A DNA stretch of 58,374 bases from Sphingobacteriia bacterium (GTDB lineage Bacteria; Bacteroidota; Bacteroidia; B-17B0; Aurantibacillaceae). The position numbers were made by a program, and so were the translations under genes. Of the stretch, positions 32,522-36,814 are shown one piece after another. How positions within the stretch are numbered: the stretch's first letter is position 1; each line of letters starts with the position of its first letter. The notes beneath the pieces were generated by a model. The model saw only the letters and a list, made by a program, of their open reading frames with translations, ran no database searches and was not told the origin of the DNA. Location: positions 1-58,374 of the forward strand of contig RFNG01000058.1 of the NCBI GenBank assembly GCA_009927275.1, written 5' to 3'.

Positions 32522-33415
32522 TTATTTAACCACAATACCATCAATATCCTGATTTATTTTCTTTAAAACTAAAATACGGTGTAGGGTTTCTGCAGCCAAT
32601 CCGTGCAGCACTAAGCGGTATGCAGCACTGTAAGTTGAAACCGGCACCATGGGGTGCTTATTGTTTACAAGCCCTAAATGGGCGGGTGTTTTTAAAATAC
32701 GAGATGCATAAATAGCAATGGTTTCATCTAATTGTAAACTGTTGGCAGCTCTAACAAAATCGTTAGACGTTAAAAATAACTGATAAAACGGCGTAAATAA
32801 TTCAATAGCACTGCGTAGGTCTAAAACATTTGTCCATCGTTTTGGAAACTCAATATGCGAAAACTGATCTTCTGTAATCATCGATAAATCTAATATTTCA
32901 GGGGTTTCAAAGGGTAATTTATCATGCTGCAGGGCCGCATTTAAACGAATTACAAAATTATAGAGATTTAAATCGTGGCGCAAAAAAATATCATCCTTTA
33001 CATCTTCAAAATCTTTGGGTTTAAGCGGATCAAGCGGCAAACGAACGCCCTTGACATTGGCTTCAATAAACATTAAAATTTCGCTGCCAATATGAAAATG
33101 TCTAAATATTAAAAGGTTTGCATCTGCACTTACAAAACGCCGCATTCCAAAACTTAATAAACGATGTAACAGGCGCGAGGAATTAATTAGTTTAGGAAAA
33201 AAATATTTAAACACATGAATACAAAACATTACAATTTTTGAAAACACAAAAATGATCGGAAAAAAGTATTTGCGCGATCGGGAATCGTTATCACGCATAA
33301 GAGCGGCTTTGGTATGCGGATTTATAGGAATGCTACTGTCCAAATACATTGCAAGCCAAGGATTGGGGTCGCGATCATCATGTTTTGTAAAAAGGTGTTC
33401 AGCGGGTGTTTGCAT
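32522..33415 (-). CDS. DUF6999 family protein, last gene of the lipid operon
   Basis: Protein of about 297 aa that matches my memory of the Bacteroidota family DUF6999 (DRDPNPWLAMYLDSSIPINP, SRKYFFPII, LRHDLNLYNFVIRLN, SLQLDETIAIYASRILKTP). There is one hydrophobic segment (about 55-75) and otherwise helical, soluble-looking sequence, so it may be membrane-associated. No enzyme motif is recognised, though His and Asp/Glu residues are well spread. The ATG at 33415 is preferred over an upstream TTG at 33460, which would overlap the desaturase. Its position right after a desaturase and a ketosynthase suggests a role in the same lipid pathway. Confidence 0.6.
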   Translation of the reverse strand: MQTPAEHLFTKHDDRDPNPWLAMYLDSSIPINPHTKAALMRDNDSRSRKYFFPIIFVFSKIVMFCIHVFKYFFPKLINSSRLLHRLLSFGMRRFVSADANLLIFRHFHIGSEILMFIEANVKGVRLPLDPLKPKDFEDVKDDIFLRHDLNLYNFVIRLNAALQHDKLPFETPEILDLSMITEDQFSHIEFPKRWTNVLDLRSAIELFTPFYQLFLTSNDFVRAANSLQLDETIAIYASRILKTPAHLGLVNNKHPMVPVSTYSAAYRLVLHGLAAETLHRILVLKKINQDIDGIVVK

Positions 33416-33423
33416 AAAATAAT

Positions 33424-34191
33424 TTATGAGTTTATACGTGCCAGTTTTAAAGCCAACCAAAGGTTTATAATACCATTTGATAACGAATAACGACGTGCAG
33501 AGGAATTAAAAAGACCCGGATTTTGATGGTGCTTTAAGTGATAGCCCTCGCCCATAACAACGAAGTTTAAAAGACTGGAGTTAATTGCAGCAGATTTTGC
33601 ATCTGCATCAAAATGTTTACTGTGGCCGAGCGAATTTACTGCGTCGCCTAAATTGTAAATTATAAAAAAGCAAGCCCAAAGCACCCCTAACCCGGTTATC
33701 CCCCAAATCAAATAAAATATGGCATGATACATAACACCGGATGTTACCATAATTACGGCGTAATTAAAAGGCCGGCTAACCCATTCGTAAAAGGCAATGG
33801 CGGCAACATCTTGAGCATGTGTATTATATTCAAGACCATGCCGGGGCCTCCAATAGGCATCAAAAAATATACGCAAAGAACCTAAACAGGCATATAACAT
33901 ACATTGTACTTTTTGATGAGTATAAATATACCAGCCGCAATGCGCATACCAAAATCCATGTATGTAAGGCGAATGTGGATCATGTATGGTGTCGGTATAC
34001 AGATGATGTTGTCTATGGGTACCAACCCATTGTACGGGCGTACCGGCCGGTAATGCTAGGATGGTTAATCCATATTCAAACCAGGGCCTTAGCCGTAAGG
34101 TACGATGGCTTAATATACGGTGGTATACTATAGAGGCACAGGTGCCCGCTATAACGTACAGCATGAATGCCACTATAATTAAACTCCACAT
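33424..34191 (-). CDS. Acyl-CoA/acyl-lipid desaturase family protein
   Basis: Membrane di-iron desaturase of 255 aa. The three histidine clusters are present: HRILSH (24-29), HRQHH near 60, and HLKHH near 218, as in stearoyl-CoA-type Delta9 desaturases. Hydrophobic segments flank the boxes. The enzyme would introduce a double bond in an acyl chain, using O2 and an electron donor not encoded nearby. It starts within the stop of the ketosynthase fusion (TAATG). The substrate could be ordinary membrane acyl chains or the product of the adjacent ketosynthase. Confidence 0.88.
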   Translation of the reverse strand: MWSLIIVAFMLYVIAGTCASIVYHRILSHRTLRLRPWFEYGLTILALPAGTPVQWVGTHRQHHLYTDTIHDPHSPYIHGFWYAHCGWYIYTHQKVQCMLYACLGSLRIFFDAYWRPRHGLEYNTHAQDVAAIAFYEWVSRPFNYAVIMVTSGVMYHAIFYLIWGITGLGVLWACFFIIYNLGDAVNSLGHSKHFDADAKSAAINSSLLNFVVMGEGYHLKHHQNPGLFNSSARRYSLSNGIINLWLALKLARINS

Positions 34192-36044
34192 TAATAATTC
34201 CCTAATTCTTTTAATTGCATAACATAAAGCGCAGCGGTTGTTTTAGCTGTTTTAACAATTTGATCTGCAACATCCATATTCATTAAGGGATGATTTAAGG
34301 CCTTTTCTAAATTATGAAAATGATTTTCATCCGCAACACCGTGATACGTAAAAAATGAAACCTGATCATCGTTTAAGTGCAACTGGGATTTAATCATTTC
34401 GCCCCAAAACGCAGCCAAGCGCTTGCCAATACCTTCAATAATAAACATGGAGCCCATTAATTGAACTGGATTAGATTTTGAGGCCTGGTGAAACATATAG
34501 GCACTTAATGCCTGACTGCCTATATTTTTAATACCATTTTGTATAGCATTTTTATCCCAACCCATGGCCACCCAGTTGGCTTCTAAAATTTGATAATCGC
34601 GGTGCTCGGCAGCAGTATGTTTAATAAATGCCGAACGTAATTCAAACAACTCAATATCAATATTTGAGGCGGCTCTTGAAATCCATTGCGAACCATCAAT
34701 TACCTGTTGTCTTAAATCGTTAAGTAAAAGTTTATAATCGTCTTTGGAAAGTTTACCAGCGTGAATTTTTTGAATAATAGGAAGCTGTAATAAGGCCGTT
34801 TCAAACTGAATCCAAACGGAAGACAATGAACGTACAAGCCACTCAGAAGTACTGTTTGATTCTAATTTTAATTCTGGAGCCTCAATAGGCCGTATGCTGT
34901 AATCCTTTTGTGGTTTTTCGCCAGACGGATTAACCACTTCAAGCATAAAAAAACTGGTAATAAATCTTCCGCTTTCTGGAACCATACATAAAATGCGCTG
35001 GCCGGCAATCAGCTTACCGCTATTAAAAAGCTCCTCAAGCATTATAAATATAGAGGCAGAACCGGTGTTTCCTTTCGTTTTTAAATTTGAAAACCATTTT
35101 TCTTCAGGAATGTAAGCCCCGCCTTTTTCTAACAGCTCTTTAATCTTAGGTTTAAACATTTCAGAGGAATAGTGGCAACATAATACATCAATGTGGTCCG
35201 TGGTAAAACGGCCCTGATTTATCAAATCAAAATAATGCACAATACCTTCTTTTATAACTTGATCAAGCAACCGCACATCTTGTTTTAAATTTATAGCTCC
35301 ATTTGCAGAAGCTTCTTCATAGGATGCATAGTCAAGCCAAGTGGGTTCATTTTCGTTTTGATTATCGTTTTTACCGGTGTACATAACTACCGGATAGTGA
35401 TGTGCATGCGAACGGATATCTACCCATTCGAGCTTTAATGAAATACCTTGTGTACGGGGCGTATCTTGCAATACCATAGCACCTGCACCATCAGAAAGCA
35501 TCCAGCGTAAAAATTCCGTATCAAATGGCACCGAATTAATTTTTTGGGCATCAAATCGACTTCCTTTAAAAAGCCTACTTGAAAGTTCTGAACCCACAAC
35601 CACAGCATTATTAGTTTTTTCAGCAGCAATATGCAGTGCGGCATGTTGTAAAGCCATTACCCCACTGGCGCACACACTTTGAAAACTGGAAACGGCACAG
35701 CTTTTAAAAGGTAATCGCGCATGCACCATGCTGGCAAAGCCAGGTACAGGTAAATCGCCTTGCGTTGTACCGGCGGCAAGTAAAGCCACCTGTTCAGGCC
35801 GAAGCGAGCTATCCGCTAAGGCACGAAGCACCGCTTTAGAAGCCATTTCAGCATTGGATTCAAGAGTTTGTTGTTTTGTATCCAGTGCATAATGCCGGTA
35901 CTCAATACCATTTTGTTTGAGAATACGATCTTTTAAGCGGCTGGGCGTATTATGAATGAAGCCAAGGTAGTTTTCCATGGCATCATTTGCAATGGGCGGA
36001 CCAGGCAAATACGCACCCATAGAAGTAATGTAAACATTGTTCAT
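34191..36044 (-). CDS. StlD/DarB-like ketosynthase III fused to a haem-oxygenase-like di-iron domain
   Basis: A protein of 617 aa with two domains. Residues 1-~372 are a FabH-fold ketosynthase resembling the StlD/DarB family of dialkylresorcinol synthesis (LRWMLSDGAGA, NLKTKGNTGSASIFIMLEEL, VPESGRF). The triad is intact: C125 in QSVCASG, H291 in CCHYSSEMF, N326 in GNTGSA. Residues ~400-617 look like a TenA/PqqC- or haem-oxygenase-like oxidase domain. Candidate metal ligands are in AAEHRD (E480/H481), E537 in FIIEG, and H568-x3-D572-x2-H575 in YHGVADENH, the pattern known from HDO enzymes such as CADD and SznF. It is coupled to the hydroxylase upstream (ATGA, once the missing base is restored) and to the desaturase downstream. 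The product is unknown. Confidence 0.8.
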   Translation of the reverse strand: MNNVYITSMGAYLPGPPIANDAMENYLGFIHNTPSRLKDRILKQNGIEYRHYALDTKQQTLESNAEMASKAVLRALADSSLRPEQVALLAAGTTQGDLPVPGFASMVHARLPFKSCAVSSFQSVCASGVMALQHAALHIAAEKTNNAVVVGSELSSRLFKGSRFDAQKINSVPFDTEFLRWMLSDGAGAMVLQDTPRTQGISLKLEWVDIRSHAHHYPVVMYTGKNDNQNENEPTWLDYASYEEASANGAINLKQDVRLLDQVIKEGIVHYFDLINQGRFTTDHIDVLCCHYSSEMFKPKIKELLEKGGAYIPEEKWFSNLKTKGNTGSASIFIMLEELFNSGKLIAGQRILCMVPESGRFITSFFMLEVVNPSGEKPQKDYSIRPIEAPELKLESNSTSEWLVRSLSSVWIQFETALLQLPIIQKIHAGKLSKDDYKLLLNDLRQQVIDGSQWISRAASNIDIELFELRSAFIKHTAAEHRDYQILEANWVAMGWDKNAIQNGIKNIGSQALSAYMFHQASKSNPVQLMGSMFIIEGIGKRLAAFWGEMIKSQLHLNDDQVSFFTYHGVADENHFHNLEKALNHPLMNMDVADQIVKTAKTTAALYVMQLKELGNY

Positions 36045-36759
36045 AGTATTCTTTTATATAGGTTATCCAGGAGTGATGATGCAAAACCAAAATGGATTTG
36101 CCACGCGTATGGTGCTCGTTATGGCGGGTCCCAAGCTGAAAAAATTTAGGACCGGGCATTTTCCAAAAACGGTAATTGCAGTGTCCTGAAAAATTAAGCA
36201 CAATACTGCTTACCGGATACACCATAATCGCCAAAGGCTCTAAAGGAACCATCCAAGATAAACACAACGGTACAGCGCTTAATAATAAAGCCTCAAGGGG
36301 ATGAAAGCTATATACACTGGTTAAGGTTGGCACCAAAGACCGGTGATGTATGCGATGCACATGCTTCATAAAAAACGGCAGATGCATAATACGGTGAATA
36401 ACAAAAAAATGAATTTCATTATACAGGTTTAATCCTATAATGCTTAAAATAAAATTAAACCCATTGGTTGCTGCTAATGTTATAGCTCCTGAGCGGACGT
36501 AATACAATATAGGCCACGCAGAAAACCCAAATATAAATATAGAGTACAACGAATGCCGAATTTCATAATAGATTTGTTGGCGCGTAACGGGCCGTCTATC
36601 TATTTTATAAATCCAGTTTCGGGCCTCAAATGCGTTTAATAAAAACTTAAAAACCCATCCTAAGCCAAAATATAATAATAAAAAATAGCTTACGCTTAAA
36701 AGCCATTGTTCTAAAAAAGAAGCATTATAAAAAAAATACTGTTGAAGCTGAACCAACAT
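36041..36759 (-). CDS. Fatty-acid hydroxylase / sterol desaturase family protein, frameshifted near the 3' end
   Basis: Integral membrane di-iron hydroxylase with histidine boxes HFFVIHRIMH (about 117-126), HVHRIHH (133-139) and HNEHH (about 216), and several hydrophobic segments. The last 25 codons are out of frame. After HHTRGKS the expected NFGFASSLLDNLYKRIL appears only if one T is added near 36093 on the plus strand. The frame then stops at 36041, where TGA overlaps the next gene's ATG (ATGA). As written, the frame runs on to 35983 into the ketosynthase gene. The ATG at 36759 is chosen over TTG 36765 because a strong promoter lies just upstream. It probably hydroxylates an acyl chain. 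Confidence 0.82.
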
Positions 36760-36762
36760 TTT

Positions 36763-36793
36763 CAAATGTATTTATTTACCTTGTTCTTAGCAA
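36763..36793 (-). promoter_or_regulatory. Promoter of the lipid operon (TTG-N20-TACATTTG)
   Basis: On the minus strand, TTG (36791-36793), a 20-nt spacer and TACATTTG (36763-36770) match the Bacteroidota -33/-7 promoter very closely. The ATG at 36759 follows after only 3 nt. The four lipid genes are therefore transcribed separately from cysQ upstream, probably as a leaderless message. Confidence 0.75.
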
Positions 36794-36814
36794 ATTCAAT
36801 AGTTGCAAAAAATA

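Follow-up and report, generated by a model that had tools for sequence, protein, structure and literature searches.

The coupling carried out by ketosynthases of the DarB/StlD type proceeds via a cyclohexanedione step. In dialkylresorcinol biosynthesis, DarB has been described as the cyclase and DarA as the aromatase, and the product is derived from two fatty acid intermediates (PMC3949708). The haem-oxygenase-like di-iron (HDO) enzymes carry out O2 chemistry at a dimetal site, and about a dozen of them are counted as functionally validated in the account consulted (PMC13108848).

Enzymes of these two kinds are joined in one polypeptide in the stretch of DNA analysed here (58,374 nucleotides in full, hereafter the window). 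A 617-residue protein consists of an StlD/DarB-type ketosynthase fused to an HDO (PF14518) domain; its gene is tightly linked to that of a DUF6999 protein, and DarA is not encoded nearby. Each half is of a known kind, and it is their union in one chain, together with the tie to DUF6999 and the independence from DarA, that points to a lipid pathway for which no description was found; in the open-access literature, no description of either the fusion or DUF6999 was found.

Organization of the locus

Four consecutive genes, all on the minus strand, run from position 36759 to 32522. In this order their Pfam assignments are PF04116 (2.2e-15), the ketosynthase III fusion, PF00487 (2.1e-14), and PF22523 (5.9e-114), and no carrier protein, ligase, or reductase is encoded in the operon. 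The features are as follows.

36763..36794, minus strand: motif resembling a promoter, TTTG-N20-TACATTTG, no more frequent than expected by chance (motif scan)
35983..36759, minus strand: optional protein of the membrane fatty acid hydroxylase family, with its His boxes intact (PF04116, 2.2e-15)
34191..36044, minus strand: ketosynthase-HDO fusion, 617 aa (ORF call, Pfam and NCBIfam matches, AlphaFold2 model)
34929..36044, minus strand: ketosynthase half, residues 1-372, triad C125-H291-N326 (StlD/DarB model, solved StlD)
34194..34889, minus strand: HDO-like half, residues 386-617 (PF14518, 3dde profile match)
33424..34191, minus strand: optional fatty acid desaturase with the His boxes HRILSH, HRQHH, and HLKHH (PF00487, 2.1e-14)
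32522..33415, minus strand: DUF6999 protein, 297 aa from ATG, second core member (PF22523)

For the DUF6999 gene, the ATG at 33415 is a better start than the TTG at 33460, and for the hydroxylase gene the ATG at 36759 is the better choice. The 3′ end of the hydroxylase gene overlaps the start of the fusion gene by 62 bases. Its tail is out of frame with respect to its relatives and departs from them after HHTRGK (window 35983-36100, minus strand); since a different reading frame of this 3′ end resembles the tail of the relatives, a frameshift or an assembly error is likely. The His boxes lie before the point of departure.

The sequence-only reading had placed these genes behind a near-perfect promoter, a claim that did not survive. 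A Bacteroidota-type motif does exist at 36794-36763, but it is no better than chance, because four such motifs were observed in the window against 6.06 expected in shuffles, a gap of 3 bases separates the motif from the start codon, and only 3 of the 77 related loci whose upstream sequence is long enough contain it. A sigma-70 scan also gave a chance result (15 found versus 15.2 expected).

The ketosynthase half

The ketosynthase half matches the StlD/DarB model at 1.9e-120 and the solved StlD at 1.3e-80. The AlphaFold2 model of the whole fusion (m0b09b6d477cc) has a pLDDT of 90.3 and a pTM of 0.63, and in a fold search based on this model the ketosynthase half superposes on StlD (PDB 5gk0/5gk2) with a Z of 52.8 and an rmsd of 1.6 over 368 residues at 40% identity. 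The next non-StlD entry in the same search has a Z of 38.6, and OleA is found at about 37. The KAS III fold and the Cys-His-Asn triad are both present: as had been read from the DNA, C125, H291, and N326 are kept, being invariant in all 60 aligned fusions, and H291 aligns with the catalytic H302 of StlD.

Membership in the described families is less complete. The match to StlD/DarB expected by the earlier reading was obtained, but the score against NF005293 (StlD/DarB family) is 402.4 bits, below the curated cut-off of 450 (two relatives score 428.5 and 372.1), and that against NF053539 (DarB) is 350.2 bits, below the curated cut-off of 550 (one DarB control scores 637.5). Nine alignment columns, two of them DarB insertions, separate the fusion side from DarB. 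Position 103, which we take to lie near the substrate-gating Phe of FabH, is F in 24/24 fusion-side rows and H in 24/24 DarB rows, as well as in StlD. Because both curated cut-offs are missed and F is found at position 103, the substrates of the fusion ketosynthase may differ from those of StlD/DarB. In a tree of 23 fusions, the Pseudoalteromonas protein described below, 24 DarB proteins, and two of three intended FabH proteins, the 24 DarB rows group together (88/83), at a fork that is not starred and with an unsure root; of its 47 inner branches, 15 are open, and a long branch leads to the Pseudoalteromonas protein.

The HDO half and its candidate metal site

When residues 386-617 are scanned alone, PF14518 is matched at 30.2 bits, above the Pfam cut-off of 28.9; within the whole fusion protein the score is 28.1 bits, just below it. 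At E <= 0.1, the profile matches 27 of 28 aligned members. The haem-oxygenase-fold structure 3dde is matched by the HDO half at 1.1e-07 by profile. Fold searches with the whole fusion say nothing on this half because the ketosynthase half filled them; the HDO fold is assigned by profile homology. The HDO/PF14518-like domain sought by HMM was recovered in the domain-alone scan, and the PF14518 and 3dde matches speak, as far as the fold is concerned, against the unrelated helical bundle that had been named as a possible refutation. Together with the closeness of the other half to StlD, they bear out the ketosynthase-HDO fusion itself. A second PF14518 match in the same genome (G000:C100:35395-35832, L186) is weak, at 21.3 bits, below the cut-off.

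The candidate metal ligands are E480, E537, H568, D572, and H575, and D483 or H476 is possible in addition. In an alignment of the window's protein with 59 of the 74 full-length fusions, H476, E480, H481, D483, E488, E537, H568, D572, and H575 are invariant in all 60 rows, in agreement with the H568-x3-D572-x2-H575 motif and the further Glu/His candidates proposed from the DNA. In a set of 28 rows that takes in two distant fusions and the protein encoded separately in Pseudoalteromonas, all of these residues except H481 stay invariant. E480, E537, H568, D572, and H575 are also the same residues in 12/12 other PF14518 proteins of the phylum, a comparison set that favours canonical members, as it comes from the 13 of 20 loci that passed an HxxxDxxH filter, with L160 dropped for its wrong frame. 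The helix-1 His common to these 12 proteins falls in a gap of the fusion family between D483 and Y484, and in the alignment with 3dde the helix-1 His of that structure lies opposite Y484. Hence, of the six ligands (3 His/3 carboxylate) that helices 1, 2, and 3 usually supply, five positions are kept and the helix-1 His is absent. As judged from conservation, D483 or H476 might replace it as a ligand.

Distribution and the DUF6999 partner

A profile search of the genome collection with the HDO half gave at least 394 related stretches, the best 80 of which were examined; candidates had been drawn via two short patterns. Among these best 80 of at least 394 loci, 74 encode the fusion in one frame of 612-634 aa, and the other six are cut by contig ends or have broken or shorter frames. 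DUF6999 lies downstream of the fusion, within 1.5 kb, in 78 of the same best 80, and the remaining two (L099 and L119) lie on contigs that stop within the desaturase gene or shortly after it. On the other hand, in this set of the best 80 of at least 394, the hydroxylase is found no more than 1.5 kb upstream of the fusion in 61 loci (62 if one 4 kb off in L133 is included) and has no match near the fusion in 16, and the desaturase is found just downstream in 11. The description of the locus as four tightly coupled genes thus holds for the window, where four consecutive minus-strand genes of the stated families are present, and the constancy of fusion and DUF6999 is confirmed in the neighbourhoods, but a four-gene set is an overstatement. 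It is replaced here by a two-gene core of fusion and DUF6999, with the hydroxylase and desaturase optional among the best 80 of at least 394 loci.

The DUF6999 protein scores 380.2 bits against PF22523 (cut-off 27). Its model is mainly helical (pLDDT 80.1), and one clearly hydrophobic stretch is seen at residues 66-84. The DUF6999 alignment comprises the window's protein and 47 of the 75 DUF6999 proteins. R120-H121, H162-D163, N267-K268-H269-P270, H286, and E291 are kept even in Pseudoalteromonas. Comparison with solved folds gave a best Foldseek E of 1.0, a best Z of 4.7, and 0 matches by profile search, a result that excludes no family. Pairwise distances of the fusion correlate with those of DUF6999 (r = 0.90 over 2485 pairs) and of the hydroxylase (r = 0.83 over 1485 pairs), and in both cases shared genome descent explains part of the correlation. 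No DUF6999 relatives were found in a viral-contig scan.

Full-length fusions occur in four of 395 genomes sampled from the phylum, each in a different family. The HDO profile finds the same four genomes, and DUF6999 is strong in these four and weak in a fifth (G219). Within the window's own genus, the fusion is patchy, since only 2 of 37 genomes, including that of the window, carry it. Named cultured hosts among the loci are Zobellia uliginosa, Cellulophaga sp., Echinicola shivajiensis, Aquimarina muelleri, Niastella yeongjuensis, and Crocinitomix catalasitica. In control searches, Caulobacter vibrioides matches the DUF6999, PF14518, and StlD/DarB profiles; 9 of the 14 controls match StlD/DarB as well.

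Unfused relatives

Three consecutive separate genes (FIU82_RS18250/18245/18240) on a 0.8-Mb Pseudoalteromonas sp. THAF3 replicon encode a ketosynthase, an iron-containing redox enzyme (HDO), and DUF6999, in the same order as the parts of the fusion and DUF6999. The ketosynthase and HDO proteins share 45% identity with the fusion over 94% of its length, and the DUF6999 proteins share 29.3% over 83%. No PF14518 match was obtained for the THAF3 HDO protein at E 0.1, though it can be aligned with the fusion family. This is the only DUF6999 match among 72,556 plasmid records. That one lineage has as separate genes what another has as a fusion, with the same third gene alongside, suggests that the parts belong to one pathway. 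In the place of the hydroxylase, upstream of the THAF3 ketosynthase, there is a 188-aa protein with no Pfam match (L145:9621-10178), which is small, membrane-like, and rich in His and Glu.

Different surroundings are seen elsewhere. In G219 (L150, G219:C242:1-9000), an unfused ketosynthase and a weak DUF6999 relative, with one stop inside the match, adjoin a flavin monooxygenase, and the HDO profile has no match in this genome. Either the oxidising partner is swappable, or DUF6999 is tied to the ketosynthase rather than to the HDO. A plasmid of Streptomyces sp. NBC_00008 (L149) carries a DarB-like ketosynthase with acyl carrier proteins, an FAD monooxygenase, FabF, a P450, and FabG; neither HDO nor DUF6999 is among its annotated neighbours.

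Proposed pathway and alternative readings

By sequence comparison, the bifunctional enzyme is real and conserved, and its gene is closely linked to that of its partner. As to its chemistry, we infer acyl coupling, oxidation with O2, and a role for DUF6999. In the preferred reading, a serious candidate that we hold at a little less than even confidence, the fusion and DUF6999 form a two-gene lipid-forming core in which the ketosynthase couples acyl units, the fused HDO oxidises the product with O2, and DUF6999 adds a further step. Briefly, the ketosynthase would take two acyl units, presumably from the fatty acid synthase pool, since the operon has no carrier protein, ligase, or reductase of its own, and would couple them as StlD/DarB does, the most likely product being a dialkyl cyclohexane-1,3-dione or its linear precursor. 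The fused HDO, with its putative metal site and O2, would then oxidise the nascent product by aromatisation, hydroxylation, or oxidative decarboxylation, and so take the place of the aromatase DarA. DUF6999, which is helical, perhaps membrane-associated, and has conserved His, Asp, and Glu residues, may perform another obligatory step, and the hydroxylase and desaturase may decorate the chains in some species.

The StlD/DarB character of the ketosynthase also invites the view, raised beforehand as a refutation, that the fusion is a paralogous part of a flexirubin/dialkylresorcinol cluster. Such an origin is very improbable. A DarA profile built from 8 rows, which detects DarA in G182 and in the two DarB control genomes, has no match in the window's genome (G000, an assembly 99.3% complete) or in four other fusion genomes (G403, G441, G254, and G280), so the reported absence of DarA extends from the window to the rest of this assembly. 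In G182, the sixth fusion genome searched, DarA adjoins a separate DarB on a contig other than that of the fusion. In addition, the score against the DarB model (350.2 versus 550) falls short, and the window's genome has no second DarB-level match; apart from the fusion, its ketosynthase matches are all low-scoring. The DarA search and this score lead us to disfavour a flexirubin paralogue.

In an olefin or ketone route, the ketosynthase would deliver a beta-keto acid that the HDO decarboxylates oxidatively, UndA-like chemistry following an OleA-like condensation. UndA is indeed an HDO that makes 1-alkenes from fatty acids, as outlined in PMC13108848, and the PF14518 and 3dde matches place the same fold here. 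However, UndA chemistry is not simply transferable because the helix-1 His of the usual HDO site is missing, and no counterpart of OleB, OleC, or OleD is found among the Pfam matches of the operon. DarB-like coupling is favoured because the structure resembles StlD far more than OleA (Z of 52.8 versus about 37), and the olefin or ketone route is unlikely. The missing His, present in 12/12 other aligned PF14518 proteins, could also mean that the HDO-fold half has no catalytic dimetal site and serves as a metal-free catalyst or as a holder of an acyl intermediate, the oxidation being left to DUF6999 or the hydroxylase; metal-free enzymes of the HO fold are on record (PMC13108848). This, too, seems improbable, as the residues at the five other ligand positions are kept in 60/60 fusions and also where Pseudoalteromonas has the HDO as a separate protein, and the nearby invariant D483 and H476 could stand in for the His.

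Returning to the two-gene core, the probable product of the fusion set, in the scattered Bacteroidota that carry it, is an oxidised lipid not yet described. A more far-reaching version, which we regard as possible yet doubtful, is that the fusion, as a synthase, both condenses and oxidises within one protein, has a non-canonical HDO metal site (perhaps 2 His/4 carboxylate), and yields dialkyl cyclic lipids of a new, O2-tailored class (resorcinol, hydroxyquinol, or quinone-like), and that DUF6999 is a new enzyme family completing the product, the set being scattered over distant Bacteroidota and unfused in Pseudomonadota. As the HDO carries its likely substrate source with it, the chemistry of the fusion is directly testable, and the linkage to the fusion gives DUF6999 a functional context.

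Comparison with known systems

The locus of Pseudoalteromonas sp. THAF3, also uncharacterised, has the same three parts in the same order, but as three separate genes and with a 188-aa protein instead of the hydroxylase. StlD has the same ketosynthase fold, with its catalytic His aligned with that of the fusion, but it has no HDO half and has His where the fusion has F103, and the fusion scores below the StlD/DarB family cut-off. The DarB/DarA system uses the same type of ketosynthase, and the substrates of the fusion would likewise be expected from fatty acid synthesis; however, the fusion has an HDO half and a linked DUF6999 instead, and DarA is absent from five of the six fusion genomes searched for it. 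Like UndA, CADD, SznF, and other HDO enzymes (PF14518), the fusion has the HDO fold, as assigned by homology, a Glu on each of helices 1 and 2, and the HxxxDxxH motif on helix 3; it differs from them by the missing helix-1 His and by the ketosynthase joined to it.
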